A program made the position numbers and the translations under genes. Below, in pieces: positions 1,924-19,505 of a stretch of DNA of 64,000 nucleotides. The stretch is from the NCBI RefSeq assembly GCF_014638915.1, contig NZ_BMFQ01000002.1, forward strand, positions 682,001-746,000, written 5' to 3'. Source of the stretch: Xanthomarina arctica (GTDB lineage Bacteria; Bacteroidota; Bacteroidia; Flavobacteriales; Flavobacteriaceae). Each line of letters begins with the position of its first letter. Position 1 is the stretch's first letter. The notes under the pieces were generated by a model, which saw nothing but the letters and a program-made list of their open reading frames with translations, was not told the origin of the DNA and ran no database searches.

Positions 1924-2835
1924 ATGAAAAAACAGTTTACATTTGTCGCCTTTTCAATATTGATACTTTTTGCAGCAACCTCATGTGCAAAACAATTTAT
2001 GGTAGTTGACACTCCTACATTACAACCCCCTGCACGTGTGCTTAAAGATAGACCTGCAGTTGCTCTTGTTCTTGGAGGTGGTGCATTTCATGGAATGGCT
2101 CATGTAGGTGTGATAAAAGTACTTGAAGATGCCGGAATTCCTATAGACCTTATTGTTGGAACAAGTGCTGGAAGTATGGTGGGTGCATTATATGCTGACA
2201 ACCCTAAAATTGATTCTCTAATTCCTTTAATAAAATCTACAACAGCCAAAGATGTTTTTGATTTTTCTTTATTTAGATCGAGTGAAGGCTATGTTTCAGG
2301 AAAAAAACTACAAAGTTATCTTAATAAACAGCTTCGAGTTACTCAGATTGAAGATACACAAATACCTTTTGTTGCTGTAACAACAGATCTTGTAAAAGGA
2401 GAAACTGTGGCTTTAAAAGCCGGCCCCATAGCTCCGTCTGTAAATGCATCTTGTGCCATACCAGGAATTTTTGAGCCAGTAAAAATGTATGGTTCTACTT
2501 TTGTAGATGGAGGTGTTCTTGATAATCTTCCTGTTAATATTGCTAAGGAGTACAATCCAGAATATATAATTGAGGTTAAAATTATGGCATTTGAGACTAC
2601 GGTCGATTTAAAAAACCATCAGGATGTAATAATAAGAGCATACTCTGTTGCTGCAAATAAAGCTAATGTTGAGCTAAACTCAACGGCTGATGTTTTAATT
2701 GCTCCTAACTTAAAGGGCATTCCATTAATGAGTAGTAAGGACAATGAAAAATTATATGAATTAGGAGTAAATGCAGCGAAAGAAATGCTTCCTGGAATAA
2801 AAGCTGAACTTCAAAAAAGAGGTATCCTTAAATAG
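1924..2835 (+). CDS. patatin-like phospholipase, lipoprotein
   Basis: The 303-residue product is a patatin/RssA-type serine acyl hydrolase. Its N-terminus is a lipoprotein signal ending in AATSC, with the lipidated Cys at about 21. The oxyanion-hole segment LGGGAFHGMAHVGV lies at about 50-63, the nucleophile motif GTSAG at 79-83 (Ser81), and the dyad partner DGG at 195-197. These are the complete catalytic parts of the family, so it is probably an active lipid esterase at the cell envelope. It stands alone, and a dyad at 1893-1906 lies upstream. The substrate cannot be told from the sequence. Confidence 0.93.
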   Translation: MKKQFTFVAFSILILFAATSCAKQFMVVDTPTLQPPARVLKDRPAVALVLGGGAFHGMAHVGVIKVLEDAGIPIDLIVGTSAGSMVGALYADNPKIDSLIPLIKSTTAKDVFDFSLFRSSEGYVSGKKLQSYLNKQLRVTQIEDTQIPFVAVTTDLVKGETVALKAGPIAPSVNASCAIPGIFEPVKMYGSTFVDGGVLDNLPVNIAKEYNPEYIIEVKIMAFETTVDLKNHQDVIIRAYSVAANKANVELNSTADVLIAPNLKGIPLMSSKDNEKLYELGVNAAKEMLPGIKAELQKRGILK

Positions 2836-2950
2836 TGTTTCCAAATAAAAATAAGATGCTAGTACGTTTATTAGTGGTTTCTGTATTTGATGATAATTAG
2901 ATTTAGACAATTGTCTTTATCCAATTGTTGAAACAAATTTGACAAAAACA

Positions 2951-3646
2951 ATGAGTGTTTTAAAGAATTTATGGGCTTTAGGTAAAACTGGTTTTGTTAA
3001 AGAAGAAATAAGAACTTTAAAGCAGTCAGTCCGATTTTTAATAAAATTGTTTTTATTTTTAGTCGTTGTCAAAATCTTGTATTTAGGACTAACTCTTATC
3101 ATTGATTTGTCAGATACATTTTCTATTCCTGTGGTTTCAAACGACTTTAAATTCGACAAGTATTCTGGAATTCAAAAATTCCTTTTGAGTGCTTTTTTAA
3201 TACCAATTTTGGAGGAACTGACATTTCGGCTTAATTTGAAATTTTCAAAACGAAACTTTCTTATAATGTTTCTTGGAATTAGCTACTCTGTTTTCAAAAT
3301 TATATTTCAATTGGACTGGTCTAATTCTTTATTAATAACTGTAATACTCACCTTATTATTAGGCTTGTTATTAAAGAATAAAATTCTCAATCGATTAGAA
3401 ATATTTTGGAAAGAAAATCGACTAATTGTATTTTATTTTTTACTTTTTAGCTTTGTTCTATTGCATTCGACAAATTACGATTTGGAATTTTCGACTTTAA
3501 TTTATATCCCACTATTAATGCTTCCACATTTTTTTGCCGGATTAGTTTTTAGTTATGCACGTTTAAAATCAGGAATAATAATGTCTATTAGTTTACATAT
3601 ACTAAATAACGGCTTGTATGCACTTCCATTGCTATTTGCAACATAA
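2951..3646 (+). CDS. CPBP family intramembrane metalloprotease
   Basis: This is a hydrophobic protein of 231 residues with several membrane segments. The CPBP/CAAX-protease motifs are present in order: EELTFR at about 88-93 (EExxxR), FVLLH at about 168-172 (FxxxH) and HILNN near 216-220 (HxxxN). I chose the ATG at 2951; a TTG four codons upstream at 2939 is also possible. Members cleave prenylated or other membrane substrates, or act in bacteriocin immunity; the role here is unknown. The gene runs opposite to the cassette array that starts 18 bp after its stop. Confidence 0.82.
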   Translation: MSVLKNLWALGKTGFVKEEIRTLKQSVRFLIKLFLFLVVVKILYLGLTLIIDLSDTFSIPVVSNDFKFDKYSGIQKFLLSAFLIPILEELTFRLNLKFSKRNFLIMFLGISYSVFKIIFQLDWSNSLLITVILTLLLGLLLKNKILNRLEIFWKENRLIVFYFLLFSFVLLHSTNYDLEFSTLIYIPLLMLPHFFAGLVFSYARLKSGIIMSISLHILNNGLYALPLLFAT

Positions 3647-3680
3647 ACTTACTACAACACCATGTTAGCCTTTTGTTATT

Positions 3681-4430
3681 TTATTTTATAATAATATGAC
3701 TATCCGAAATCTCTATAATTTTATTTAATAAAACATCTGCATTATTATACCTTTTTTCCAATTCAATTGCAGAATATAAGCTGTTATCTAGTGCATTTTC
3801 AAAACGTATTTCTTGTAATAAGTCTGAATTTTCAAGGTTGAACTTTGAGCCTTTCTCATTTTTTTCATTATAATGGTCAACATTCACCAAGGATCCTTTT
3901 TCAATTAAAAAATAAACTAGATAGTTTGAACTAGTATTTAGGCCCGTATGCCATTCTAGGATATCTTCATAAAGTCTATCCCAATCATATAAAAGAAGTT
4001 TCAGGTTTTCATTTTTCAAAGTTGATAATTTACCAGAATTCTTGATGTCATTTAATACGTAAGAACTTGGATTCCAAGTAGGATTAGAGATAGCATAATA
4101 AATTAAGCTATCAATTATAATGTTATTCACTTCAACATTTTTTAAACCAGAATATGATAATAAAGTATTACTCGCAGAAATTTTATTTTTAATACGTGAT
4201 AAGTCAATCTCTAGTTCTTTCAAATTCTTCCGGAATTCACTATTTAGATTTTCCGTTAATATTTTTAATGCATTATTTTCCTTTCGATTTTCATTCCATT
4301 GATTAATCTGAAGTGCAATTAATATTCCAATTACTACTAAAACAATTTCCCCAATGGCATATTTCAAATACTTTCCAGTTTTATTTTCCATAAGCAAGTT
4401 TTGTTGAATTTTTCTAAAGAATTTTATCAT
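3681..4430 (-). CDS. DUF6090 family membrane-anchored protein
   Basis: This 249-residue protein has the typical DUF6090 start: a basic N-terminus, then KYAIGEIVLVVIGILIAL as a single membrane segment at about 23-45, followed by QINQWNENRK and a helical extracytoplasmic region. Function is unknown for the family, which is common in Flavobacteriia. It is the downstream-most cassette of the array. Its ends, GTTAGCCTT at 3664 and AAGGCTAAC before 4463, pair with each other. Confidence 0.85.
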   Translation of the reverse strand: MIKFFRKIQQNLLMENKTGKYLKYAIGEIVLVVIGILIALQINQWNENRKENNALKILTENLNSEFRKNLKELEIDLSRIKNKISASNTLLSYSGLKNVEVNNIIIDSLIYYAISNPTWNPSSYVLNDIKNSGKLSTLKNENLKLLLYDWDRLYEDILEWHTGLNTSSNYLVYFLIEKGSLVNVDHYNEKNEKGSKFNLENSDLLQEIRFENALDNSLYSAIELEKRYNNADVLLNKIIEISDSHIIIK

Positions 4431-4453
4431 TTGGTAAGTGGTTGGTCATAATG

Positions 4454-4580
4454 AAGGCTAACGGCAGTCTGTCTAATAACTAAAACCTAATCTCTGAGAA
4501 TCGCCTATTCATGAATTTTCAAAGAGACCTCCCCGAATATCAAAGTTACAAAAATAGGTTATTAGACAGTCTGACGTTTA
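4454..4580 (-). repeat. attC-like palindrome, third type (single copy)
   Basis: The left arm has GTCTAATAAC (4471-4480) and the right arm GTTATTAGAC (4558-4567), extended outward by CAGTCTG-like bases. A second inner pair is AACCTA with TAGGTT. The outer left end AAGGCTAAC pairs with the start of the DUF6090 cassette at 3664. The centre differs from the other two palindrome families. The next palindrome follows after only a few bases, so no gene lies between them. Confidence 0.6.
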
Positions 4581-4586
4581 TGTTTA

Positions 4587-4698
4587 AGGTTAGTTGCGTG
4601 GTTAAGCAACTAAATTAGTAAAATGGAACGAACCAGAGGAAATTCCGTAGGAATTTCCAAGTAGGCAAGAACCAAGCAATTAATTTTATACGGTGCTG
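4587..4698 (-). repeat. attC-like palindrome, second type, long form
   Basis: The outer arms TTAGTTGCGTGGTT and AACCAAGCAATTAA are near-perfect reverse complements. The centre contains a perfect 9-bp-arm hairpin, GGAAATTCC-GTA-GGAATTTCC. The right edge, GCTGGAAATAGTAT, pairs with ATTATTGCCAAC before 5384 across the two-gene unit. The same arms recur at 8855-8929 with a different, shorter centre. Confidence 0.65.
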
Positions 4699-4985
4699 GA
4701 AATAGTATTTTTTATTTGTCTTCTTTTAAATAACGCAAATATAAAAACAATTAAAACGTGGGATATTAAGCAAAATGCTAATCTAAATAACATTCCTAAT
4801 CCATATTCATCGTGTTCCCAAATAACAGTTTTTCCATAAATTATAATTCCTACATATGTAATTACTAAAAGTGCATTTGCTATAAAAAAAATTTTAAACT
4901 TAATCCAATTAGAAAGCATATAAGCACTTGAAATCCAAAGAATAATTGGAATCAAAATGATTAGTAGTATTAACAAGGCTTCCAT
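4686..4985 (-). CDS. small membrane protein in cassette
   Basis: The 99-residue product has about three membrane segments (residues about 3-23, 30-50 and 66-88) and a short basic tail KRRQIKN. I do not recognise a family. The ATG lies four bases after the stop of the upstream gene at 4990-5340, so the two are probably co-translated and travel in one cassette. The 3' end lies within the palindrome's right edge. Confidence 0.65.
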   Translation of the reverse strand: MEALLILLIILIPIILWISSAYMLSNWIKFKIFFIANALLVITYVGIIIYGKTVIWEHDEYGLGMLFRLAFCLISHVLIVFIFALFKRRQIKNTISSTV

Positions 4986-4989
4986 TATT

Positions 4990-5340
4990 TTAGTTTGTTA
5001 ATGTCTCAATTTTAGGTAATTCAAAAATATCCGATTCTCCATCTATTGAGTAAAATTCTAATTCAGTTGGCATTTGGTCAGTTCCGAATACAGATATTCC
5101 AACCAATTCTCCGTTTTTACCTTTTCCTGCGTAATCTATCATTAAATTTCCTTTTTGAATTTCCGAGTTAAATGATTTTCCAAAAATTATAGTCGGACAT
5201 TTTCCGCATCCACATCTCGCAATTACTTTGAGGTTTTCAATTAAATTACTCCATTCCGATTTTTCTTTACGAAACAAATAAGTCAGAAATTCAATCTCTG
5301 ATTTGGTCAATTCTCTTTTATCTGGAATGCTATATTTCAT
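4990..5340 (-). CDS. hypothetical protein with CGCGKC motif
   Basis: This is a soluble-looking protein of 116 residues with no signal peptide. An N-terminal helical part (to about 42) is followed by RCGCGKCPT at about 43-51, where three closely spaced Cys could bind a metal, and then a beta-rich second half. I do not recognise a characterised family. It is the first gene of a two-gene cassette, with its ATG about 43 bases from the cassette boundary at 5383. Confidence 0.65.
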   Translation of the reverse strand: MKYSIPDKRELTKSEIEFLTYLFRKEKSEWSNLIENLKVIARCGCGKCPTIIFGKSFNSEIQKGNLMIDYAGKGKNGELVGISVFGTDQMPTELEFYSIDGESDIFELPKIETLTN

Positions 5341-5379
5341 TAAGCAATTTGTTCATTTTTTGCGTTCAGCTATATTATT

Positions 5380-5512
5380 GCCAACGGTTTTGTATATGGA
5401 AAGTGCGTGTTTGTGTCAGCGGATTTTCGGAACGAAAATCGGATAAAAACAAGTACGCACTTTCCTTTGGTTTAGCACTAAACTACGCATTTTTTTTATA
5501 CAGTGTTGTGGC
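5380..5512 (-). repeat. attC-like palindrome, main type, copy 1
   Basis: It has the conserved core of the main family: AAAGTGCGT..TTG and CAAGTACGCACTTT arms around the inner hairpin GATTTTCG-GAA-CGAAAATC, plus a side hairpin GTTTAG-CA-CTAAAC on the right arm and the outer pair GTATA/TATAC. The variable ends are GCCAAC (left, pairing with 4695) and GTTGTGGC (right, pairing with the left end of the copy at 6676). Confidence 0.8.
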
Positions 5513-5517
5513 TAGTT

Positions 5518-6627
5518 TTATTCTTTAACAATTTTCTTAATATTGACCTGATTAAATTCATCGATTGATTTTACAATATAAACTCCATTATTGAAATCAG
5601 AAAGATCTATACTATTCATTCCTTTATGTAATTTGAATGAAAAAATTTTTCGTCCTATGATATTATAAATTTCAACATTAATAGATGAGTTGAAATTGTT
5701 TAATATAAATAATTGATCCTTAGTTGGGTTTGGATAAATAAATAAATCGTTGTTTGAAAAATGATTAGAAACACTTAAGGAATTACAGTCTTCAGAAAAA
5801 ACAATTGTATTATCATAAGACCAATCATCATAAGGAGGATTACCATTATTGGCGTCAATTTCATTATCAACTTGTATACATGTTAAGTTAGGACTATTTA
5901 AAACGTTAACGTTATAATATGGGACTGTGTAATTTGTACCGTTTTTTAAATTTATTGTTGAAAGTGAATTATTTTCTGCCCAGAGCACTAATAATTCGGG
6001 GTTGTTACTTAAGTCTAAATCTCCAGTAAGAAGAGTATTTGATAAACCTAAAATTTGAAGATTTGGCCAGGATGAATATATATTAGTAACATCACCTTCA
6101 AGATTATTACCAAATACATGAAAATTACCCATCATAGTTAAATTTGCAAATTCCAGAGGTATAGTGCCAGTAAAATAATTCTCATCCAATTCAAGAGATA
6201 TTAGATTTGTATTATTTCCAATTTGAGGAGGAATAACACCAGTTAATTGGTTATTCCATAAGGATAGATGCGTTAAATATGGAAGATTTCCAATACTGGC
6301 AGGAATTGTTCCATTAAGATTATTATTTGAAAGTTCTAAATATGTTAAATGAGGAAAATCTCCAATACTAGCTGGAATTGTTCCATTAAGATTATTATGC
6401 GATAATTCTATTTTAGTCACATGGTCATTGCCAGAAATATTAGTAACGACAATACCATTCCAAGTTGATACTGGATTATCAATATCCCAATTATAATAAT
6501 TCCAATTCAAAACATCTGTAGATACAGCTAAATCTATTAAAGCATCTCTTTCTGAAATTGGTACTTGAGCAATTATTTTATTAAGTCCAAAAATTAGTAG
6601 GAGACTAAATAGTAATTGTTTTTTCAT
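5518..6627 (-). CDS. secreted leucine-rich repeat protein with T9SS sorting domain
   Basis: The 369-residue product has a signal peptide (about 1-20, ending IIAQ), then plant-type LRRs (residues about 70-215, repeats such as LTYLELSNNNLNGTIPASIG). A C-terminal type A T9SS sorting domain starts at the YPNPT motif (about 300) and ends in IVKE. It should be exported and released or anchored at the cell surface by the type IX system; LRRs suggest protein or glycan binding. Two adjacent repeats are nearly identical at the DNA level, indicating recent internal duplication. It is a single-gene cassette. Confidence 0.85.
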   Translation of the reverse strand: MKKQLLFSLLLIFGLNKIIAQVPISERDALIDLAVSTDVLNWNYYNWDIDNPVSTWNGIVVTNISGNDHVTKIELSHNNLNGTIPASIGDFPHLTYLELSNNNLNGTIPASIGNLPYLTHLSLWNNQLTGVIPPQIGNNTNLISLELDENYFTGTIPLEFANLTMMGNFHVFGNNLEGDVTNIYSSWPNLQILGLSNTLLTGDLDLSNNPELLVLWAENNSLSTINLKNGTNYTVPYYNVNVLNSPNLTCIQVDNEIDANNGNPPYDDWSYDNTIVFSEDCNSLSVSNHFSNNDLFIYPNPTKDQLFILNNFNSSINVEIYNIIGRKIFSFKLHKGMNSIDLSDFNNGVYIVKSIDEFNQVNIKKIVKE

Positions 6628-6675
6628 AGTTATTTAAGTTTATTGGTTTGCAATTTTTTATTGTTGTTGTAATTA

Positions 6676-6810
6676 CCCACAACGGTTTTGTACATAAAAA
6701 GTGCATGCTTGTGTCAGAGGATTTTCGGAACGAAAATCGGACGAAAGCAAGTACGCACTCTCCTTTGATTTAGTACTAAACTACGCATTTTTTTATACAG
6801 TGTTGTAAAC
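6676..6810 (-). repeat. attC-like palindrome, main type, copy 2
   Basis: It has the same core as the main family (inner GATTTTCG-GAA-CGAAAATC hairpin), with small changes such as GTGCATGC in the left arm. The left end CCCACAAC pairs with GTTGTGG at 5505; the right end GTTGTAAAC pairs exactly with GTTTACAAC at 7257. Confidence 0.82.
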
Positions 6811-6815
6811 AGTTT

Positions 6816-7235
6816 TTATCGGCTTAAAGTTTCCTTTAAAATACCTTCTCCTAAAATTTCAGATTCCCAAGTCATAGAGTTGCTTGTTAATTCAGAAACA
6901 GTATAAATTTTCGTTCCCATATCTACATTATCAAAATCTATTGTTAATATATTTTCGTTCTTTGACCAATTACCTTGGAAAACTCTTAATTCTAACTCAC
7001 CACTAGGATCACCAACATCAATTAAATATCTAAATTCTGCTCTATTTTCGGCAGATAATAATCGAGTAATACTTTGATTAGTAATTATTTCTCCATTTAA
7101 TGTAGTTTCACCTACAGACCAACCTCCAACCACTGATAATTCAGTTTCAGTATCATTATTGTCATCGTTATTCGAACAGGATGAGAAGGTCATAAATCCA
7201 ATAGATAAAGTGAAGAGTAAAATAAGTTTTTTCAT
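6816..7235 (-). CDS. lipocalin-like lipoprotein
   Basis: This is a 139-residue lipoprotein with a signal ending FSSCS (Cys at about 20), an Asn/Asp-rich linker, then a beta-rich domain starting VVGGWSVGETTLNG and ending MTWESEILGEGILKETLSR. That layout is typical of small lipocalin-like lipoproteins of Bacteroidota. Ligand unknown. It is a single-gene cassette whose two ends are perfectly complementary over nine bases. Confidence 0.72.
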   Translation of the reverse strand: MKKLILLFTLSIGFMTFSSCSNNDDNNDTETELSVVGGWSVGETTLNGEIITNQSITRLLSAENRAEFRYLIDVGDPSGELELRVFQGNWSKNENILTIDFDNVDMGTKIYTVSELTSNSMTWESEILGEGILKETLSR

Positions 7236-7256
7236 TTGTATAGTTTCGGTTAAATT

Positions 7257-7392
7257 GTTTACAACGGTTTTGTATATGAAAAGTGCATGCTTGTGTCAGA
7301 GGATTTTCGGAACGAAAATCGGATGAAAGCAAGTACGCACTTTCCTTTGGTTTAGCACTAAACTACGCATTTTTTTATTCAGTGTTTTGCGC
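7257..7392 (-). repeat. attC-like palindrome, main type, copy 3
   Basis: This is a main-family core with the perfect inner hairpin. The left end GTTTACAAC pairs with GTTGTAAAC at 6802. The right end GTTTTGCGC pairs with GCGCCTAAC at 8063. Confidence 0.82.
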
Positions 7393-7395
7393 TGG

Positions 7396-8052
7396 TTATT
7401 TTGTCAGTCTAATATTCAGCTGTTTTGCTAATTCCGAGACATAGTTCTTATGAGGTTTTTTACTCTCAATCGAATTATAGTATTCGTTAAAAATTCGTTC
7501 ACCGTTTTTTCTGTCGATTTCCAATTCAATAATGGCTCCGCAAAGCTTTTCTCTTGGTGAAAATTTTATTTCTTTTGATTGAATTAATTCCGCAACAATT
7601 TTGGTTCGATTGTTAAATCTGTCGAACCAATTTTTAACATCAGATTTAATTCGGTCAATTATTAATTCAGCCGTTTTCTGATAATCAGATTGCAATGAAA
7701 ACCATATTTCTTTTCCATCCACCTTATCATTTATTCTTGTCCGAATTTCGCAATCATATTCTTGAATAAAAACCTTTGGTTTTTGATTAAATGTCTTTTC
7801 GTACAATTCAGGAATAAAAACTCCAATGTTTATTGTGAAATTCTTATAAAGATTATTCCTTAAACCAGGAATTTCAACAGTATTTTCAAATTCATAATTA
7901 GCCATTTGGAAATTAACGACTTGGATGATTCCATTGTCAAGAACTTTATTATGAGTTCTTCCTTTTTTCTTAAACCCATCCACTTTCAATTCGGAATGAA
8001 CTGTTTTTTGGATTTCGTCAAGTGTCTTTTTATAGTCGATGTTGTTTGTCAT
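7396..8052 (-). CDS. DUF4304 domain-containing protein
   Basis: This is a 218-residue cytoplasmic-looking protein without a signal peptide. The N-terminal half (ELKVDGFKKKGRTHNK, then VVNFQM and INIGVFIPEL) has the DUF4304 pattern; the C-terminal third is helical and charged. The family has no established function. It is a single-gene cassette with its ATG about 19 bases from the boundary at 8071. Confidence 0.75.
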   Translation of the reverse strand: MTNNIDYKKTLDEIQKTVHSELKVDGFKKKGRTHNKVLDNGIIQVVNFQMANYEFENTVEIPGLRNNLYKNFTINIGVFIPELYEKTFNQKPKVFIQEYDCEIRTRINDKVDGKEIWFSLQSDYQKTAELIIDRIKSDVKNWFDRFNNRTKIVAELIQSKEIKFSPREKLCGAIIELEIDRKNGERIFNEYYNSIESKKPHKNYVSELAKQLNIRLTK

Positions 8053-8062
8053 TTGTCAACTA

Positions 8063-8200
8063 GCGCCTAACGGTTTTGTACATAAAAAGTGCGTGCTTGT
8101 GTCAGAGGATTTTCGGAACGAAAATCGGATGAAAGCAAGTACGCACATTCTTTTGGTTTAGCACTAAACTACGCATTTTTTATATACAGGGTTGCCATAC
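8063..8200 (-). repeat. attC-like palindrome, main type, copy 4
   Basis: This is a main-family core. The left end GCGCCTAAC matches RYYYAAC and pairs with the right end of the copy at 7257. The right end GTTGCCATACG pairs with the CATGTATGGTTA left edge of the second-type palindrome at 8855, so different palindrome families can bound the same unit. Confidence 0.8.
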
Positions 8201-8217
8201 GTTTTTTTTTATTTCAG

Positions 8218-8622
8218 TTACCCTTTTTTAGGTTTAATATCAAATTCGTCTAATTTTTGTAACCAATTTGGACCATCAATATTCATTTTCACAGTTTCTA
8301 AAAGATATCTTTCTCTTTTTACGTTATAACTGTAACCTTCTAACATTTTTTGTTCAGTATCCATGATGTAACCTAAATCGAGGTCTTTGTCAGCATAAAT
8401 GCGATAGGTTATTTTTTTGTCTACTTTGAATGGTTGATTATATATAATATTCTTTACTTCATTTCCAATGTCATTTATATTCACAAGATTAGATTCTATT
8501 CTAACATCTTTGTTTTGATTTATAAAAACATTAATAAAGTAGGATTCATTAGAATCCGATTCTTGTGCAAAAAAGATATTGCTGATTAAAGCTACAACGA
8601 TAAATAATTTAATTTTTTTCAT
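8218..8622 (-). CDS. secreted protein resembling an ExbD periplasmic domain
   Basis: The 134-residue product has a signal peptide ending FFAQE. The segment INVFINQNKDVRIES, then ITYRIYADKDLDLGYIMD, resembles the periplasmic domain of ExbD/TolR proteins, but the transmembrane anchor with its functional Asp is replaced by a signal peptide. This similarity is by eye only. Unlike the other cassettes it has a long leader (about 235 bases) between boundary and ATG. Confidence 0.6.
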   Translation of the reverse strand: MKKIKLFIVVALISNIFFAQESDSNESYFINVFINQNKDVRIESNLVNINDIGNEVKNIIYNQPFKVDKKITYRIYADKDLDLGYIMDTEQKMLEGYSYNVKRERYLLETVKMNIDGPNWLQKLDEFDIKPKKG

Positions 8623-8854
8623 AATGTTTATTTTATCTTGGATTAATATAATTTAGGTGTTATAAATTTATTGCTTTATAATGATTTTAGCTAAAGTTGA
8701 AAATAAAATTTTAAATCAAACTTTAGATGTCGGTCATTTTCTCGTTTTGGTCAAATATGTTACAACGTGTTTCTTTAGTTAGTAATAAATATCTTTAGAT
8801 AGAAAAAGTGGATAACTTACCTTGTTTTATAATTACCGCTTAATGACAATTACA
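8623..8854 (-). other. long leader inside a cassette
   Basis: This AT-rich stretch upstream of the gene at 8218-8622 is inside the cassette. I see no gene and no convincing -33/-7 pair. It may hold a promoter, which would make this cassette independent of read-through, but the sequence does not prove it. Confidence 0.3.
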
Positions 8855-8929
8855 TGTATGGTTAGTTGCGTGGTTAAGCGAGTAAGCTCGACAAGCAATT
8901 AACTATAACCGGCTTAATTTAGGATACGT
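8855..8929 (-). repeat. attC-like palindrome, second type, short form
   Basis: The arms TTAGTTGCGTGGTTAAGC and AAGCAATTAA match those at 4587-4698, but the centre is only the hairpin CGAG-TAAG-CTCG. The left edge CATGTATGGTTA pairs with GTTGCCATACG at 8191. The right edge (TTTAGGATACG) pairs with GTATGGTAAC at 10416. Confidence 0.65.
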
Positions 8930-8960
8930 TTTTTAAGAGTTCATTCCGTTTCAAATTATC

Positions 8961-10364
8961 TCAATTATTTAGATTTAATAAATCATCTTCGAGGGTAATA
9001 TCAGAAGGCTTTTTTGCATTAAAATCAATTATATTCCCAGCCTTATCTAAAATAATATATCTTGGTAAACTTTCTATTAAATAATTTTTTTTAAAGTCAG
9101 CAAATTCTTCTGGTTGACAAAATAATTGAATACCATCAAATGATTTTTCTCTAATTACATTTTGCCATTTTAAGGAATCCGTTTGAATACAAATATTGAC
9201 AAACTTTATATCATAGTTATTTAATTTTTGTTGAAGTTTATTTGAATACTCAATTTCATTTATACAAGGATTGCACCAACTTGCCCAAATATCTATATAA
9301 ACTAAATTTCCTTTTAGGTCATTAAGGGAAACTAATTCATTATTTTTATTTATAAACTCAAAATTTGAAACCTTTGAACCTATATCATAATCTTTTAACT
9401 TATAATATTTTTTTTCAATAATATTTTTCAAGTAGATATCCTTTGTTGAAGTATTATAGGTTTCATAAAAAACGTCTAAATTATTTGTATGTTCTATATT
9501 AAAAAATGCTGTTACGTACATTAACTGCTCACGAATCTTTTCACTTTTCATAAACGTCGTATCAGTTTTAACTAATTTTAAATGAGCCAAACCTATATCA
9601 TTAATTGAATCTAGCTTATTGTTAGTCATAAGTCCAGAGTAAATATAAAGATTCATCATAAACAATGGAACTTCAATGAAATCTTCATTTTTAAGGTCTA
9701 TCCCTTTAAAAAAAATTGGATATGAGTTTGATTTCTCATAATTTTCGTCAACATTTTTTCTAGTAAAAGAATAAGTAAGGTATTTACTAGTTCGCAATGC
9801 TAAATTCTCTAATTCCAAAAAATTTTTGAATTCGTTGTCATCAAAGGAAGCTTCATTAATTAATTTATCATATAAACTTTTAATTGAATCTGTTAGTTTT
9901 AAAAACTTGTCTTCTTTCAGATTTGCAAAATGGTGATAAAAGTTAACTGAAGCCAGTTTTTCAGCTAGTGCCTTGCTTTGTTGGCTATAGGTGTTTTCTT
10001 TTGCTCCATAACCTGAAAATTCAATTTTAGAATCATTAATAGTTATATGTAAATCATATCCTTTATTTAGATAAATAGGATATGTAATGTCTCCAACGGA
10101 GAGATCGTAAAATCCGCGAGGTATTTCGAGAGTTTCTTTAAAGGAATTGTCAGAGTCAATTTGGAGATTCCAGTTGTTAATTGATTTTCCCGTAACGTGG
10201 TAATTTGGATGGGTCTTAATGTAAATTGTATCTAAATTATTGTTTTCTATAATTCCAGAGATAGTTAGATTACTTGATTTACCATTGGATTCACAGGATA
10301 ATGTGACAATGACCAATATTATTGAGAGTAAATTTCTCAAAATAGCAAATATGTTGTAACTCAT
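8961..10364 (-). CDS. TlpA-like thioredoxin-fold lipoprotein
   Basis: The 467-residue product has a lipoprotein signal ending TLSCES. An N-terminal beta region and a helical middle precede a C-terminal TlpA/AhpC-type thioredoxin domain (from about 330, GSKVSNFEFINKNNELVSL) with the redox motif WCNPC. Bacteroidota proteins of this layout are thiol-disulfide oxidoreductases of the periplasm. The partner is unknown. It is the largest gene of the cassette array. Confidence 0.85.
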   Translation of the reverse strand: MSYNIFAILRNLLSIILVIVTLSCESNGKSSNLTISGIIENNNLDTIYIKTHPNYHVTGKSINNWNLQIDSDNSFKETLEIPRGFYDLSVGDITYPIYLNKGYDLHITINDSKIEFSGYGAKENTYSQQSKALAEKLASVNFYHHFANLKEDKFLKLTDSIKSLYDKLINEASFDDNEFKNFLELENLALRTSKYLTYSFTRKNVDENYEKSNSYPIFFKGIDLKNEDFIEVPLFMMNLYIYSGLMTNNKLDSINDIGLAHLKLVKTDTTFMKSEKIREQLMYVTAFFNIEHTNNLDVFYETYNTSTKDIYLKNIIEKKYYKLKDYDIGSKVSNFEFINKNNELVSLNDLKGNLVYIDIWASWCNPCINEIEYSNKLQQKLNNYDIKFVNICIQTDSLKWQNVIREKSFDGIQLFCQPEEFADFKKNYLIESLPRYIILDKAGNIIDFNAKKPSDITLEDDLLNLNN

Positions 10365-10416
10365 GTTTAAACTAATTATTTCTGATTAATTTTTTTCCTA
10401 TTGAGAGAGCAAAAAG

Positions 10417-10554
10417 TATGGTAACGGTTTTGTATATGAAAAGTGCGTGCTTGTGTCAGAGGATTTTCGGAACGAAAATCGGATGAAAGCAATTACGCAC
10501 TTTCCTTTGGTTTAGCACTAAACTACACATTTTTTATATACAGTGTTTGGCATA
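10417..10554 (-). repeat. attC-like palindrome, main type, copy 5
   Basis: This is a main-family core with AATTACGCAC in the right arm. The left end TATGGTAAC pairs across the TlpA cassette; the right end GTTTGGCATAG pairs with ATGCCTAAC at 11163. The stop codon of the next gene (10534-10536) lies inside it, so the palindrome encodes that protein's last residues. Confidence 0.82.
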
Positions 10555-11154
10555 GTTTTTTATTTTTTGCTCCATGTTATCCCAAATTTTCAATAGAGTA
10601 TTTGTGTCTTTTGAAGCTGTTTTATAGTCATCTCTACCTTTTGCAGTCAGAGTGTGTTTTTTTCCTACTTTACTTACTAATCCTTTCTCTGATAGCCACG
10701 AAATAGAAGTTTGTATTTCTTTATGTGTTGGAACGGCATGATTAATTCCATCCGCAATCATAGAGATGCCATTAAAGTCTGTTGGTTCAGTTTCTGAAGC
10801 CATTGACAACGCCAAATAAATCCATGAGATTGTTCTTCCTTCGCTTGGGTTATTATATGGCATTATTTCAATTCTTTTTGGCACTCTATTTCGCATTATA
10901 AATCCCGATTTTTTTTTGTCAGGTGTTAGCTCATTATATCGGCTTTTGATATATGGTCTAGCACCGTCAGCAGGAGAAAATTCAGTTTCCAAATATTCAA
11001 TATCCTCTTCATCTAATTCACTAACTGTTCCATCTTCGTTGACATAAACATATTCAAATCCAAGTTCTTTGGGTCTCAAAGGGACGAAGTATTTGAGGTA
11101 GACAAATAGTCCAACAATTACAATAATGCCTATTATGAAATATAATATCGTCAT
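10534..11154 (-). CDS. membrane-anchored hypothetical protein with winged-helix-like C-terminus
   Basis: The 206-residue product has one N-terminal membrane segment (about 2-22), an acidic stretch, and a C-terminal region (about 145-185, THKEIQTSISWLSEKGLVSKVGKKHTLTAKG) that looks like a winged helix. No named family recognised. The last seven codons lie in the palindrome. The ATG is about 16 bases from the cassette boundary at 11171. Confidence 0.68.
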   Translation of the reverse strand: MTILYFIIGIIVIVGLFVYLKYFVPLRPKELGFEYVYVNEDGTVSELDEEDIEYLETEFSPADGARPYIKSRYNELTPDKKKSGFIMRNRVPKRIEIMPYNNPSEGRTISWIYLALSMASETEPTDFNGISMIADGINHAVPTHKEIQTSISWLSEKGLVSKVGKKHTLTAKGRDDYKTASKDTNTLLKIWDNMEQKIKNYAKHCI

Positions 11155-11162
11155 TTTTAATT

Positions 11163-11302
11163 ATGCCTAACGGTTTTGTACATAAAAAGTGCGTACTTGT
11201 GTCAGAGGATTTTCGGAACGAAAATCGGATGAAAGCAAGTACGCACTTTCCCTTTAGTTAAGCACTAAAATAAGCATTTTTTATACACAGTAGTAGGCAT
11301 AG
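11163..11302 (-). repeat. attC-like palindrome, main type, copy 6
   Basis: This is a main-family core. The left end ATGCCTAAC is a textbook RYYYAAC. The right end is GTAGTAGGCAT, where the usual GTT is GTA. The outer right-arm side hairpin is degraded here (TTAGTTAAGCACTAAAA). Confidence 0.8.
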
Positions 11303-11305
11303 TTT

Positions 11306-12289
11306 TTATTGTCTATTATAAAAAGTAATAAACCATTCATTTAATTCTTGATATTCTAATTCTGTAATTGTATTATATTCATTTGGACTAATTATCTTCC
11401 AACCAAAAACAGGATGAAAGATCCATTTTACATCTTTTTTTAGATTTGAAAAAAAATATAAGGTATAAATGTAATTCTCATTTTCATCTTCAATAAATAT
11501 TGTTTGTGACCTTTCTACATTTTTCACGTATTTTGGGAAATCTTTTTTTTGTGGGCATTCCGAATTTATGATAGCCTGTATTTGATTTTCAAATTCTATT
11601 GGTAAATTGTTTGTTCTTCTATAAAAGCTTTTTAAGATAATACCAGTCATGTCCTCTGAATCTGTAATTCCAAAGTTTTCAAAATATTTATTGAGTCTTG
11701 AAGTATGACCATATAGTCCCCAATTATTCCTCATCCATCTTCCAATTGTTAAATGACTTTTACCAATAAAATCATTAATAGATATTTTTTTTATTCCTTC
11801 TTTTTCTTCAGTGCTTAAAGCAGTATCTAATTCATTTAACGCATCATTTAAATCAAAAGGAATATAAATACCATTTATACTATCCATTACCATTTGTTCC
11901 TCTACATATCGCTCTCTTTCTTTTAATTCAATTAAGTATGGTTGTGTAATTTCAGATAAACAAATAGGATTACCTTTTAATTTGTGGAAAGAGTATCTTG
12001 ATATAATGTGTTCAATTTTATATTCTGGTATTTTTTGTACTCCATTTAGATTAAAGAATTTAATCACTGATTTATAATCTTCGTAGTTGAAAATATAAAA
12101 ATCATCAAAAGAAAAATACTCATTATATGAATTAAGTTGAGAGATACTATCCTTTTCTTTCTTGGGGATTTTGCTTAAAATTTTTTCAGATAATTCATTT
12201 ATTTGAATTGGATGGCAAAAATCAGAATTTTGACCTAAAACATTTAGGGTTAAAAATAAGAAGGATATGTTTAATATTATTTTGGTCAT
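11306..12289 (-). CDS. secreted protein with DUF6794-like region
   Basis: The 327-residue product has a signal peptide ending VLGQ. Residues about 130-225 contain YIPFDLNDALNELD, then GRWMRNNWGLYGHTSRLNKYF and MTGIILKSFYRR, which match the DUF6794 pattern of Bacteroidota. The C-terminal part is beta-rich. Function unknown. It is a single-gene cassette with its ATG only about 14 bases from the boundary. Confidence 0.7.
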   Translation of the reverse strand: MTKIILNISFLFLTLNVLGQNSDFCHPIQINELSEKILSKIPKKEKDSISQLNSYNEYFSFDDFYIFNYEDYKSVIKFFNLNGVQKIPEYKIEHIISRYSFHKLKGNPICLSEITQPYLIELKERERYVEEQMVMDSINGIYIPFDLNDALNELDTALSTEEKEGIKKISINDFIGKSHLTIGRWMRNNWGLYGHTSRLNKYFENFGITDSEDMTGIILKSFYRRTNNLPIEFENQIQAIINSECPQKKDFPKYVKNVERSQTIFIEDENENYIYTLYFFSNLKKDVKWIFHPVFGWKIISPNEYNTITELEYQELNEWFITFYNRQ

Positions 12290-12297
12290 TTCAAATT

Positions 12298-12440
12298 ATG
12301 CCTAACGGCGGTTTTGTATATGAAAAGTGCGTGCTTGTGTCAACGGATTTTCGGAACGAAAATCGGATGAAAGCAAGTACGCACTTTCCTTTGATTTAGC
12401 ACTAAACTACGCTTTTTTTTATACAGTGTTTTTGCGCTGG
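12298..12440 (-). repeat. attC-like palindrome, main type, copy 7
   Basis: This is a main-family core with three extra bases (AACGGCGG) at the left edge. The left end ATGCCTAAC pairs with GTAGTAGGCAT at 11290. The right end GTTTTTGCGCTGG pairs only weakly with the GACACATAAC edge at 13324, the poorest match in the array. Confidence 0.78.
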
Positions 12441-12444
12441 TTTT

Positions 12445-13290
12445 TTATTCCTTGATTATTTTTTTAGTTATCGTTTTATTCTGTGATTGAAATTTGATAA
12501 AATAAATTCCTGAATTTAGGTTAGATAAATCAATTTTATTACTCTGTAGTTTTGTGTTAAGAACTAATCTTCCAGTAGTGGAATAAATTTTAATACTCTC
12601 TATAATCAAGTTTGAGTTAATCGTTAATTCATTTTTTGTAGGGTTTGGGAAAGTCGTTATTGCATTGTAATAGAAATCTGTTATACTTAAGGAACAATTT
12701 TCACTGAAAATTGTAGAATCATCTATACACCAACTGTTGTCATCACAAGTTTGATTGTTGGAATAATCCACATCATCAACTTGAATACATTGTAAATTAG
12801 GTGAACCACTAGTCCATAGTCGTTCAAGGTTTATATTATTTCCATTTTGGATGTTTAAATATTCAAGTGAATCGTTAACATCACATTCTAATGATTTCAA
12901 GTTTATATTTGATGATAAATCTATACTCACTACTTGATCTATATCCCAACATCTTAATGTTTCTAAATTGATAAGAGAAGTAACATTAAGTTCCACTAAA
13001 GGATTATCAGTACAATATAGTAAAGTAAGATTAGTGAAATTTGCAATTCCTTCAAGTGATGTAATATTTTTATAATCAACATTCAAACTGATTACTGATT
13101 CAGCTTCACTAACTTGAATTTCTCCATCATTGTTTAAGTCAGCATCTGAATCCCAAGTTCCATTATCATCGGTATCTACAACATTATCGTTTACCAAAGC
13201 ATTTTTAAAATTAATATCGGGAATATTTACAATTTGAGATTGACATAAAAAAGAAGTCATTAAAAATGTCAGAATGCAGATTTTTTTCAT
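12445..13290 (-). CDS. secreted LRR-like protein with T9SS sorting domain
   Basis: I took the ATG at 13288-13290 because it is followed directly by the signal peptide MKKICILTFLMTSFLCQSQ; an in-frame ATG ten codons upstream is possible. The mature part has an Asp-rich segment (DTDDNGTWDSDADLNNDGE) like calcium-binding dockerin/EF loops. Irregular LRRs follow (LTLLYCTDNPLVELNVTSL), then a T9SS type A domain from FPNPT to IIKE. It is predicted to be a surface protein exported by type IX secretion. It shares architecture but little sequence with the LRR cassette at 5518-6627. Confidence 0.82.
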   Translation of the reverse strand: MKKICILTFLMTSFLCQSQIVNIPDINFKNALVNDNVVDTDDNGTWDSDADLNNDGEIQVSEAESVISLNVDYKNITSLEGIANFTNLTLLYCTDNPLVELNVTSLINLETLRCWDIDQVVSIDLSSNINLKSLECDVNDSLEYLNIQNGNNINLERLWTSGSPNLQCIQVDDVDYSNNQTCDDNSWCIDDSTIFSENCSLSITDFYYNAITTFPNPTKNELTINSNLIIESIKIYSTTGRLVLNTKLQSNKIDLSNLNSGIYFIKFQSQNKTITKKIIKE

Positions 13291-13323
13291 AGTTTTATTT
13301 TTGGGTTTGAGGTTCGTCAAAAT

Positions 13324-13461
13324 GACACATAACGATTTTGCACATAAAAAGTGCGTGCTTGTGTCAGAGAATTTTCGGAACGAAAATCGGATAAAAACAA
13401 GTACGCACTTTCCTTTGGTTTAGTACTAAATTACGCATTTTTTATACAGTGTTGGTAACAG
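13324..13461 (-). repeat. attC-like palindrome, main type, copy 8
   Basis: This is a main-family core. The left edge GACACATAACG lacks the usual GG. The right end GTTGGTAACAGTTA pairs with TAATTGTTACCAAT at 14133-14146, which closes the last unit on the right. Confidence 0.8.
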
Positions 13462-14124
13462 TTATTTTAAACTTTTTATTTTTTCCCAATGAATATTAAA
13501 CAGTGTTCTTGCTACTTGGATAGTTTTATCTCTTGAAATTCTAACTTTGGTTTCGAAATTAGGCTCTTTACTTTTATTCGTGATAAGAGTTAATAAATTC
13601 TCGACTGAATCAATAAGGTCTTTTTGTTCCGTTTTTGAATCACTTAATAATAATTCAAGTTTGGATTTCGCAAATACTAATTTTTCTAAAAATTTATTAT
13701 TTTCATCAATTTTATCATTTTCAATATTAGATAAATACAAAGTAGACGTTAAAAATTCAGTTAGAGTATGTCTAACTTCATTTATCCAATCTTGTCTGTT
13801 TTTTGAAGCTATTGTAGCTTTATATTCGATATTCAGGTTTTCTTTTGTTGTTTTTCTTAATTGATTTGCAATAATGTAGTTTGCTAAAACGGATAATAAT
13901 CCAATAATTAATGCCACAATCCAAGGCATTTTATCCTTCCACTCGTTTTTCTCATTTAAATCACTTCCTATATTTTCAATTTTAAGAGTTTCAGGTAAAT
14001 TAATGGAAATTTTTGTTTCGACTTCTTTTTTATGATTTTCATAATTTATTGAATCTACTGCAGTTTGGGCCGATGATAAAATAGAGATAAAAATGAAATA
14101 CATTAAAAGAAGTAGTTTTTTCAT
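13462..14124 (-). CDS. membrane protein with cytoplasmic helical domain
   Basis: The 220-residue product has a signal peptide (1-20, ending SSAQT), a transmembrane segment at about 69-90 (WIVALIIGLLSVLANYII), and a long helical, charged C-terminal domain (KNRQDWINEVRHTLTEFL). I do not recognise a named family. By polarity it is the first cassette of the array, nearest the expected attI position. Confidence 0.68.
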   Translation of the reverse strand: MKKLLLLMYFIFISILSSAQTAVDSINYENHKKEVETKISINLPETLKIENIGSDLNEKNEWKDKMPWIVALIIGLLSVLANYIIANQLRKTTKENLNIEYKATIASKNRQDWINEVRHTLTEFLTSTLYLSNIENDKIDENNKFLEKLVFAKSKLELLLSDSKTEQKDLIDSVENLLTLITNKSKEPNFETKVRISRDKTIQVARTLFNIHWEKIKSLK

Positions 14125-14877
14125 GTGAGTGAGTTAATTGTTACCAATGTGTTTTATCAACTCTAAATATACTCATATCCCTTAAATAATACAGATAACA
14201 ATACTAATTTACATCAATTTAGAACATAGCCATTACACAAATCCTAAATGTATCTTACTGTTATTTACATTTTTTTTCCACTTTTAGTTCGGGTCTCCAA
14301 GGGGTCTCCTCCGGGTTTAGTTCGGGTTTACTTCGGGTTTACTTCGGCATCGGTCGGGTGGAGTTCGGGTGTATAAGCCTAATTCGGGTCCGAAAAAAAT
14401 TACCATAACAAAAATCTATAGTAATTATTCTATCTTTTTTATGCTATAAAACCGCTACTCTGGTATGTATTATATTAATTTTCCTACTTAATATGTTAAA
14501 TATGCACTTTTTTTAAAAACCATGTTTTTTGCTAAAAATTCAAAAGCTATCCAACTGTTAATGAGAATAATATAATTTTTTCATACAATAAGAGCCATTT
14601 TTTAAATTATTTTCAGCTTTTTACGTATTTTACTGATTACAAGATAATTACACCTATTTTTTTATTCAAATATTTGTTCTATGTTTGAAACGTTAAACAA
14701 CATTGTGGGGTATTCGCGGTACTGCAACTTGTGTGTTTAATTAATTGGATATCCAATAATTCTCCTAAAAATTAATAGTCCCAAAGCTGGAGCAGATTCT
14801 AAGTCTGTATCCTTATTTTTAACCTAACCGGGTGTTACTATTAAATGCCAAATCACTTGGTTATAAATCTTATTATT
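14125..14877. other. intergenic region at the right end of the array
   Basis: Bases 14133-14148 are the last cassette boundary (TAATTGTTACCAAT). The rest, about 700 bases, holds no convincing gene and no integrase. It includes the G+C-rich TTCGGGT repeats at 14285-14394. A -7-like TATGTTTG occurs near 14675. An attI site would be expected around 14140, but I cannot identify one. Confidence 0.45.
14285..14394. repeat. G+C-rich degenerate TTCGGGT(TTA) repeats
   Basis: The unit TTCGGGT, often with TTTA or similar spacing, occurs about six to eight times in 110 bases, in an otherwise very AT-rich intergenic region. The composition differs sharply from both sides. No hairpin or gene explains it. 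Confidence 0.6.
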
Positions 14878-15678
14878 ATGGCAAGAAATAATTCATTTGT
14901 AAAACTTGACGGTACCCTAGATGGACTGACGTTTTACCGTAAAAACGGAGAAAATTTGGTTAAAACTCAAAGCCGAATTAGTAAAAAACGTATTATGAGC
15001 GATCCCGCTTTTAAACGTACCCGAGAAAACATGATGGAATTTTCAGGCGCATCTAACGCTGGTAAAGCGCTTAGAGACGGGTTTGCAAATACCATAAAAC
15101 TTATGGGCGATCCCTATTTAAGTTCGCGCATAAGTGGTATCATGAGACGGATTATCAGCGTAGGCGCTGGTAAACGTGGAGAACGTGAAATAGACGTGGT
15201 AAGCATGAGAGACATGTTTAAAGGCTTAGAATTAAACAAAATCCTGCCTTTCCGCACTATTTTCTATGCACCCTACTCCCTACCCACTATTTCCGCCTCG
15301 CGTAATGTGGTAGACTGGACAGTAGTAGACTTTGCCACAGACCAATTTATATCTGCCCCCTTAGGAGCAACTCATTTTAAATTGGTATTAGCCGCTGGTT
15401 ATGTTAGTAACTACCAATATAACCCTGCCATGCGTGGCTATGAGCCTGTAGACGACACCGTCAATAGCCTTGGTGGTACAGCTTACAGCAGCTATATCCC
15501 TCTGGGTAATTTGGTTGGTAGCGATACAGTCCTGCAAGTAGATTTAACTTCGTTGGGAGTAATCCCTGCTAGCTCGGCTATCTTTACTGGAATTGGTATT
15601 ATCTTTTACCAAGAGATTAATGGAGACTTGTACGAATTGGCTCAAGCAAATGCCATGATGATTCCTGTTGCAGGATAA
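14878..15678 (+). CDS. hypothetical protein with DUF6266-like N-terminus
   Basis: The 266-residue product is counted from the ATG at 14878 (MARNNSFVKL), where homologous proteins seem to start; an upstream ATG at 14845 would add eleven residues. The N-terminal pattern LDGTLDGLTFYRKNGENLVKTQS resembles the GxxGxxxFyxxxGxxxVR start of DUF6266-type Bacteroidota proteins. An Arg/Lys-rich segment follows, then a beta-rich second half. Function unknown. It stands alone beside the array, with G+C-rich repeats upstream and a terminator downstream. Confidence 0.7.
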   Translation: MARNNSFVKLDGTLDGLTFYRKNGENLVKTQSRISKKRIMSDPAFKRTRENMMEFSGASNAGKALRDGFANTIKLMGDPYLSSRISGIMRRIISVGAGKRGEREIDVVSMRDMFKGLELNKILPFRTIFYAPYSLPTISASRNVVDWTVVDFATDQFISAPLGATHFKLVLAAGYVSNYQYNPAMRGYEPVDDTVNSLGGTAYSSYIPLGNLVGSDTVLQVDLTSLGVIPASSAIFTGIGIIFYQEINGDLYELAQANAMMIPVAG

Positions 15679-15697
15679 ACAACTCTTAATTAATATA

Positions 15698-15745
15698 AAA
15701 CCCTACTTTAGTTTTTTGGGAGAATTTCTAAAGTAGGGTTTTTTA
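15698..15745 (+). terminator. intrinsic terminator
   Basis: AACCCTACTTTAG and CTAAAGTAGGGTT form a 13-bp stem around an 18-base loop, followed by a T run. It ends the gene at 14878-15678 and may also serve the minus-strand RDD gene. Confidence 0.85.
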
Positions 15746-15777
15746 TGTTTTAGTAACAACCAAAACTGCCTAGCTAT

Positions 15778-16590
15778 TTACATACTCTGGGTATAAAAAT
15801 TGTAATCTTTTAAAACAATATCTATAAACTCCTTATCATTGGTATGCACAGACTTAATTTCGGTAACTTCAATAATCTTACTACGTAACTTGATAAGCGT
15901 TTTATAGTCTCTCATCTTGGTTGCCTTGTAAAAAGTCTCCTTAATTATTCTGGCATCATTATCAGATAATCTAATAACCGCCGGATAAACAGGTTTATAA
16001 GTGTCTGTAATTTGCTCTAAAATGGTATCCGTAAACTTTACGGTATCTTTTAAATAAATTACCACAGTATGGGCCATAATATCCCCAAAACGCTGATGCT
16101 TTTTAGTTAATACAATCAATAAAAACCCAATAAGTTTTCCAATTAAAAAGCATACTATTATTAATTGGAAATTACTATCCAAGCCTAAAGAAGCAAAATA
16201 AATAAAGATTAATGAGAAAAAATTAAAATCAATAACCCTTAAAAACCATCTAATAATATAGTCGGTAATAGAAGGTTTAAACCCGTCCACATTAATCACT
16301 TTTATTTTAAGAAACTTCTTTCCTATGGTTTGTCCGTCCAATAAGATTTCAGAATATAAAGAATAGAAAGTAACAGGTAGAAAAATTAAAATATCTATAG
16401 CCGCTATAGACCATTGATCATCATTAAAAGTATCTCCAATAAGATTGAAATTTAGAAACTTAATAGCAAAATAGATATAGGCAAACTTTATAACATTATC
16501 TATTAAGAAGGCTAACAAGCGTTGCCCAACATTTGCTAAAGTAAAATTGATATCTACATTTTGTGCCGTTTTTATTTGGAGTCTTTTCAT
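15778..16590 (-). CDS. RDD family membrane protein
   Basis: The 270-residue product has an RDD domain with several membrane segments: RLLAFLIDNVIKF at about 24-36, GQTIGKKFLKIKVIN near 86-100, and a segment ending QRFGDIMAHTVVIYLK. The family may transport small ions or molecules, or act as an assembly factor. The gene is divergent from the SpoIIM/MoxR cluster, with only 21 bases between the two chosen ATGs. RDD genes commonly accompany this cluster, so a joint function is likely. Confidence 0.85.
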   Translation of the reverse strand: MKRLQIKTAQNVDINFTLANVGQRLLAFLIDNVIKFAYIYFAIKFLNFNLIGDTFNDDQWSIAAIDILIFLPVTFYSLYSEILLDGQTIGKKFLKIKVINVDGFKPSITDYIIRWFLRVIDFNFFSLIFIYFASLGLDSNFQLIIVCFLIGKLIGFLLIVLTKKHQRFGDIMAHTVVIYLKDTVKFTDTILEQITDTYKPVYPAVIRLSDNDARIIKETFYKATKMRDYKTLIKLRSKIIEVTEIKSVHTNDKEFIDIVLKDYNFYTQSM

Positions 16591-19501: not shown

Positions 19502-19505
19502 CCTT

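Follow-up and report, generated by a model that had tools for sequence, protein, structure and literature searches.

A satellite cassette array in Xanthomarina arctica and sequence evidence for a flavobacterial integron-type gene-capture system with a tyrosine recombinase of its own

Introduction

What places genes one behind another on a single strand, each followed by a large palindrome, in a flavobacterial genome? The question is raised by a 64,000-nt stretch of Xanthomarina arctica DNA (GCF_014638915.1, contig NZ_BMFQ01000002.1, positions 682,001-746,000 of the forward strand; hereafter the window), which lies inside contig C2 of a 3.9-Mb genome and holds an array of such units (Table 1). 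An initial annotation, made from the sequence of the window, had read the array as integron-like. Our analysis indicates that it is very probably a satellite array of cassettes belonging to an integron-type system of gene capture, one native to Flavobacteriaceae and equipped with a dedicated tyrosine recombinase. The earlier reading holds in that the units are cassettes with one split site each, and needs correcting in that the recombinase is not IntI. The platform shares the anatomy of integrons but not their recombinase, and it is no integron in the accepted sense.

Published attC sites are used as the bottom strand, conserve AAC and GTT, are 57-142 nt long and can pair over 9-11 nt (PMC2727003), all of which fits the hairpins described below. 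An integron survey reports one complete integron from Bacteroidetes proper, in Salinibacter ruber, with only In0 known earlier (PMC9024848); a review includes Bacteroidota among the integron carriers it lists (PMC8618304), and eleven taxon-specific attC models have been described, none of them for Bacteroidetes (PMC8352920). A literature search that left preprints outside its scope, and from which subscription papers were mostly missing, found no description of the host platform.

Pairing of unit ends and predicted sites

The initial annotation had described eleven units in one orientation, separated by palindromes. Orientation and palindromes were borne out, while the hairpin model delimits ten units; the extra one presumably came from splitting unit 8194-10422 at a degenerate element (about 8740-8920) that is seen by eye only and has no model match. 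Nine hairpin elements of about 125 nt, all on the minus strand, lie within the array. When every unit start was scored against every unit end, the true pairs (scores in Table 1) had a mean of 9.2, against a mean of 4.6 and a maximum of 10 for the 90 wrong pairs, and none of 100,000 permutations reached the observed sum. Neighbours across a palindrome averaged 5.2, two of the nine scoring 8 and 9. As first proposed, ends pair across the unit, in nine of the ten cases; the exception, 12431-13330, had already been flagged as weak (under the limits 12428-13333) and is perhaps a fused or rearranged unit.

The pairing also survives shuffled controls in a wider sample. A strict rule, an uninterrupted run of at least 6 bases directly after GTT/AAC, was applied to 184 units of 100-6000 nt from five genomes, where hairpins were matched nearly end to end. 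It was passed by 150 units (81.5%; host genome, 17 of 27). Shuffling the ends lowered the share to 2.0% (at most 5.4% over 2000 shuffles), and of 202 comparisons across the same hairpin 4.5% passed. Of the window units only 1 of the 6 tested passes, because the copies there carry point differences, and this array therefore looks somewhat worn. Another 73 units came from 20 of the named loci, by which we mean the best 80 of 576 relatives of the recombinase introduced below, most of them Flavobacteriaceae by title; here 54 passed, versus 2.3% after shuffling (maximum 9.6%).

End matching spans GTT and seven variable bases, and beyond position 11 three further positions match again. Position 11 itself is A at 183 of the 184 unit starts, and at unit ends C predominates (129 of the 147 folded units), giving an A.C mismatch on the top strand and a T.G wobble on the bottom strand. 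Units are limited by AAC and GTT, with R''-R' pairing in the circle; unlike the GTTRRRY consensus of integrons, which is not followed, the ends here read GTT-R-N6. Circular sites, each consisting of the joined end, hairpin and start of a unit with a run of at least 6, were folded with DNA parameters. Predicted stability is higher for the bottom strand at 145 of 147 sites (mean -28.3 versus -23.4 kcal/mol) and at all 54 of the named set, a preference of predicted folding that parallels the bottom-strand preference of integrons. The printed fold examples show a short bulge.

The palindromes recur elsewhere in the genome. A model built from 35 hairpins found at least 73 related hairpins in the host (E<=0.01, with 150 of 4225 first-look candidates scored), grouped in about ten clusters, mostly with one direction per cluster, and hairpins occur in at least 37 of 60 relatives, for which at most 58 candidates were scored per genome. 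When all hairpins are pooled the consensus structure has only 9 pairs, and interior types differ. Short variants of about 75-78 nt in the host genome also match the model (C4:229440-229517, C3:173071-173148 and C2:621775-621849), and site length therefore varies. A relative assembled as a single contig, G021, carries arrays of roughly 45 and 40 hairpins (at its C1:2735000-2795000 and C1:2215000-2275000).

A recombinase and a candidate docking site at the head of arrays

A gene for a 402-aa tyrosine recombinase (C3:831132-832337 of the host genome) stands at the head of an array that shares its orientation, extends to the contig end and holds some of the related hairpins. Across the 80 named loci, all 140 hairpin matches, which by our own count fall in 40 loci, lie downstream of the recombinase and on its strand. 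A hidden Markov model (HMM) applied to these loci at 20 bits gave 107 hairpins downstream and none upstream over 709 kb, with 1 on the other strand; it detects hairpins in 33 of the 80 loci and in 21 of the 27 with at least 4 kb of downstream sequence. The contig breaks less than 2 kb from the gene in 33 of 73 cases downstream and in 2 of 58 upstream (Fisher 2e-8), a count made on 131 of the 136 class-sample matches listed, the other 5 rows, from the window's own family, having been excluded. Arrays are where contigs tend to break, and assemblies therefore under-report them.

Directly behind the recombinase lies a candidate point of entry. Of 74 loci, 55 have the motif ATATAACNNGTT no more than 200 bp from the recombinase stop, where 0.01 would be expected from upstream sequence. 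In 30 of 34 loci the first hairpin detected has an arm whose partner (6 or 7 of 7 bases) follows a GTT further upstream, as against 17 of 680 with shuffled arms; that GTT belongs to the ATATAACNNGTT motif in 20 of the 30 loci, to a near variant in 2 and apparently to another hairpin end in 8 (own count). We read this as an attI-like docking site beside the recombinase, with a sequence of its own.

A second lineage of the recombinase, of about 380 aa and 33-40% identical, heads an array in one clear case (G004:C71). It has a palindrome at the docking position instead, followed in two cases by GTT and a matching arm. Docking sites that are the platform's own, whether motif or palindrome, set both lineages apart from integrons. 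Taken together, the two occur in 188 of 299 sampled Flavobacteriaceae genomes (E<=1e-70) and, across the class, in 126 of the 395 genomes sampled (E<=1e-100), linkage to arrays having been tested mainly in Flavobacteriaceae.

Comparison with IntI and Xer recombinases

Much of the above might also be expected of ordinary IntI-type cassettes (CALIN, described as integron attC sites without a recombinase), moved by a classical IntI that is absent from the assembly or has been lost. The AAC/GTT cores, the single site per cassette, the bottom-strand folding and the pairing of about 10 nt all match attC descriptions, and hairpins of this family occur in a Polaribacter phage of which one site recombined with IntI1 (PMC9892861). 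Yet no integron integrase, such as the integron-like reading would lead one to expect, was found in the host genome over the cut-off of TIGR02249, the IntI model, and the family has none among the 105 positive genomes of the 395 sampled from the phylum. Moreover, the 140 hairpin matches of the 80 loci all stand behind a recombinase that is not IntI and has a docking motif of its own. We consider this explanation improbable.

The array recombinase scores 185.5 bits against TIGR02249, below the cut-off of 265, and lacks the 42-residue IntI-specific insertion around patch III; in an alignment with IntI4, about 22 of its residues stand opposite about 65. The insertion has been described as essential for integron function, though not fully conserved in the integron-like subgroup of recombinases (PMC8138268). 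Between KGxKxR and HxLRH, 27 of 28 new recombinases and 8 of 9 second-lineage proteins have a spacing of 58-59, 18 of 19 IntI one of 100, and the 9 of 13 Xer proteins that have the motif one of 64-69; one new recombinase and one IntI lack the motif. A tree of 69 rows, flagged for long branches and with its IntI drawn from this phylum alone, unites the 19 IntI in a single clade (100/100) that contains no new proteins; the new proteins and the second lineage form a separate clade (91/86), within which the array-lineage labels mix slightly. Because the insertion is absent, the score falls below the cut-off and the tree position is outside IntI, we set this integron-type platform apart from IntI integrons. 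Those 105 IntI-positive genomes belong commonly to other classes, with one in this class and none in this family (the family's share of the 395-genome sample is not given). An integron in Bacteroidota is therefore not itself surprising; the surprise is a platform that is not built on IntI.

Another possibility is that the genes are moved by Xer-dif modules or by a single-strand transposon resembling IS200/IS605. Xer proteins act on dif sites, and the hairpin ends here are reminiscent of IS200/IS605. The best sequence match to the recombinase among solved structures is archaeal XerA, and among NCBIfam models, too, XerA comes closest in score (205.1 bits, cut-off 220). The catalytic fold is shared with XerA and with XerC/XerD; a full-length Foldseek search, uninformative on the N-terminal domain, placed the model among tyrosine recombinases (XerA, IntI4). 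The sites, however, are hairpins of about 125 nt, one per unit, XerC and XerD are present separately and on other branches of the tree, and it is the tyrosine recombinase that heads the arrays. Unlike XerA and XerC/XerD, that protein has an extra N-terminal domain and is associated with arrays of hairpin cassettes. This alternative, although no search aimed at a Y1 transposase was made, we judge to be highly improbable, and the dedicated recombinase remains our preferred agent.

The extra N-terminal domain bears a weak resemblance to HARP/XPB-DRD, and domains of this kind bind branched DNA. Pfam searches with six single sequences gave nothing credible for it, and a Foldseek search restricted to the domain had no match at E<=0.001. 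Since SUI1/eIF1-like folds make up the other VIA-align rows, the XPB resemblance may be a common arrangement. The domain may read the hairpin in place of the IntI insertion.

Cassettes as mobile units

In the sampled genomes the units are compact, with a median length of 765 nt, of which a median of 28 nt precedes the gene and 14 nt follows it, and the main open reading frame (ORF) is forward in 148 of 184 units and reverse in 8. They form same-direction cassettes with one 3' attC-like hairpin each, and the hairpin mostly travels with the gene upstream of it. This can be followed in repeated cassettes, which fall into 9 families with 90 pairs (7 within G021, 1 within G005 and 1 between G004 and G005). 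Identity over the 90 pairs, in ten-base bins, is 0.94-1.00 through the downstream hairpin and 0.24-0.46 right after its GTT; with one pair per family (n=9) it drops from about 0.9, or 0.67 at the final base, to 0.1-0.2 after the GTT. Upstream of repeated units, little is shared past the conserved hairpin end. One 432-bp cassette is present 13 times in G021, and the cassette common to G004 and G005, two species, is 99.9% identical over 909 bp behind different upstream sequence.

The gain or loss of whole units between relatives, which the initial annotation had implied, can be seen at one chromosomal site. There, hairpins are absent from five of seven congeners, a single cassette follows an attI-like sequence in G005 (L280:1404-2010), and G004 has 6.4 kb with 4 hairpins between flanks that are 94-97% identical to those of G005. 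Window cassette 6805-7262 matches the G005 cassette at this attI-like site (95%), with homology starting exactly at GTT. The site is on a different contig from the recombinase of G005, and secondary docking sites may seed satellite arrays. Of the window array itself, only pieces were found in 99 relatives among the matches listed. That the palindromes are terminators or REP/MITE-like repeats inserted after genes, with no movement of cassettes, is scarcely credible: hairpins do follow genes and a terminator role is also possible, but unit ends co-vary across the unit, homology between copies mostly begins and ends at GTT and related species differ by whole units, so that this reading fails both the pairing and the boundary tests.

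Discussion

In the mechanism we propose for the integron-type platform, a cassette would be one unit, usually one gene, together with its downstream hairpin element. Its variable ends would be the halves of one site, GTT plus 7 nt at the start and 7 nt plus AAC at the end, and the recombination site would be complete only once the cassette is circular. The recombinase, whose gene stands first in main arrays and points the same way as the cassettes, would recognise the folded bottom strand, and exchange would take place at or beside the GTT, either with the docking site (the attI equivalent) just after the recombinase stop codon or with the site of another cassette. Comparison of sequences shows the pairing of unit ends, the GTT boundaries, the movement and duplication of whole cassettes, the linkage of recombinase, docking site and array, and a bottom-strand bias in predicted folding. 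The array recombinase probably performs the recombination, single-stranded DNA would be the substrate, and the exact cut may be G^TT.

A number of observations weigh against this account. The window array has no recombinase of its own. By HMM, 47 of the 80 named loci have no hairpin, many because of a contig end, and 6 of the 27 with at least 4 kb downstream still have none. One genome (G049) has the recombinase (252.8 bits) and no hairpin match, and in another (G026) 28 hairpins are found but no recombinase at E<=1e-70. No ORF of at least 50 aa is found in 28 of the 184 units, and the 199 of 201 circular sites that favour the bottom strand over both sets are not independent counts, because the elements share ancestry. 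Among the 90 repeat pairs, identity is lost inside the hairpin in 3, while 5 have at least 100 nt in common upstream and 3 more than 150 nt downstream; such long shared flanks fit co-duplication, as when neighbouring cassettes are copied together. At the chromosomal site compared between congeners, the segment of G005 missing from five of them is about 4 kb, of which the cassette makes up only about 0.6 kb. The segment specific to G004 and G005 is larger than the cassettes, and the site is therefore no clean empty site; moreover, the last hairpin common to the two genomes follows different genes. Finally, the G005 copy of cassette 6805-7262 carries another hairpin type, and gene and hairpin can therefore part.

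The platform resembles sedentary chromosomal integrons (IntI, attI, attC) in having a recombinase gene, an adjoining docking site and same-direction, mostly single-gene cassettes, and also in the single hairpin site per cassette, the AAC/GTT cores, the end pairing of about 10 nt and the satellite arrays without a recombinase. It differs in a new recombinase that has no IntI insertion, has the extra N-terminal domain and reads in the array direction. A working platform without the insertion would show that integron logic arose, or can run, another way, and would be a natural comparison for the features that are needed, namely hairpin, GTT core, strand bias and docking site. Such a platform would also give access to a large and so far unexamined pool of genes, with dozens per array, many of unknown function, in common marine bacteria. 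It is possible, though slightly less likely than not, that this is a second integron lineage, distinct from that of IntI, and that it is a main gene-trading system of the class Bacteroidia; in it the HARP/XPB-DRD-like domain, in place of the insertion, would read the folded single-stranded site, and two types of docking site would serve one pool of hairpin cassettes, phage-borne ones included.

The phage connection comes from P12002L, a Polaribacter phage in which a phage-integron study reported a CALIN. Of two sites tested, one was recombined by IntI1 when supplied as bottom strand and yielded no clones when supplied as top strand; the other gave no verified joints (PMC9892861). Our model matches the phage at 39123-39244, 14503-14624 and 38036-38089 (E 3e-6 to 1e-4); by HMM the best score is 13.4 bits, versus 7.3 for the best of 20 shuffles. 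Phage sites with AACACCGTATATAA...CATATACAAGTACGTT ends match the present family, and the sites tested with IntI1 may be among them. Two sites of this lytic phage, 38036-38089 and 38880-38935, measure only 54-56 nt, and some adjoin methyltransferase genes. Phages may carry these cassettes. Carriage of the recombinase by phages was considered and rejected, the 41 relatives in viral contigs being weak (best 42% identity) and covering part of the protein. A blastn search of the first cassette of the main array against phages, and of one window hairpin against plasmids, gave no match.

Cassette cargo

A scan of 145 cassette proteins chosen from the units gave, among the best 25 of 108 Pfam families, most members for TPR (6) and ankyrin repeats (3), followed by DNA methylase, WapI-type immunity protein, ParE-like and type III restriction families with two each. 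The PADLOC entries with most members, among the best 25 of 153, were a candidate system protein (3) and methyltransferases (2). Cargo in the window includes leucine-rich repeat and Por-tail proteins, a redoxin-like protein and several DUFs, and 3 of the 10 scanned window proteins had no match. In one large stretch of the main array (L024:11843-17016), a DNA methyltransferase gene, a gene for an 826-aa protein, ATPase/kinase-like by eye, and two more genes follow one another; this is possibly a defence system moved as a cassette.

Layout of the window array

Table 1. Cassette units and hairpin elements of the array, in positions of the window, from the 5' limit of the array to its last unit; scores refer to the pairing of unit start and unit end, bits to the hairpin model.
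Feature	Position	Strand	Remarks
Satellite cassette array, 10 units and 9 hairpins	3664..14147	-	No local recombinase; genes read on minus
Cassette unit, 220-aa protein gene	13454..14147	-	Start (A)TTGGTAACAATT pairs with own end, score 11; 5' limit of array
attC-like hairpin element	13331..13453	-	119.6 bits, model R1
Cassette unit, 291-aa protein with Por secretion tail	12431..13330	-	Ends unpaired, GTTATGTGTC vs GTTTTTGCGC, score 5
attC-like hairpin element	12304..12430	-	128.3 bits; model match 12307-12430, GTT end 3 bases longer
Cassette unit, 327-aa DUF6794 protein	11295..12303	-	Score 10
attC-like hairpin element	11169..11294	-	121.4 bits
Cassette unit, 206-aa protein	10548..11168	-	Score 9
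attC-like hairpin element	10423..10547	-	143 bits
One cassette unit or two old fused ones, 467-aa thioredoxin-like and 134-aa proteins	8194..10422	-	Outer ends score 11
attC-like hairpin element	8069..8193	-	135.2 bits
Cassette unit, 218-aa DUF4304 protein	7387..8068	-	Score 8
attC-like hairpin element	7263..7386	-	127.3 bits
Cassette unit, 139-aa protein, sub-threshold lipocalin-like match	6805..7262	-	Score 12
attC-like hairpin element	6681..6804	-	123 bits
Cassette unit, 369-aa leucine-rich repeat protein with Por secretion tail	5508..6680	-	Score 9
attC-like hairpin element	5383..5507	-	138.3 bits
Cassette unit, two small genes (116 aa, 99 aa)	4698..5382	-	Score 8
attC-like hairpin element, second interior type	4573..4697	-	76 bits; end CGTC not CGTT
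Last cassette unit, 249-aa DUF6090 protein, without own hairpin	3664..4460	-	Score 9

At the 5' limit of the array, 14147, the first unit begins ATT-GGTAACA, and the preceding base is therefore not G. The unit with two small genes (4698..5382) has a 99-aa frame that extends 12 nt into the hairpin, and its 116-aa gene has copies of 89-93% in two other genera. An Rfam scan of window positions 1-20000 gave nothing at E<=1. In a search for an empty site of the window array, the right flank (15777-17597) was clear in two congeners and the left flank was not found; the insertion is not datable because only the right flank was found in congeners. Just outside the array, positions 14285-14419 have an 88% copy in the same genome (C1:877769), and a TCGGGT-rich tract is also present. 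Between hairpin 4573-4697 and the last cassette there is a 21-nt inverted repeat (4460-4578) with arms 77 nt apart, which is perhaps a small insertion that splits the end of the array.

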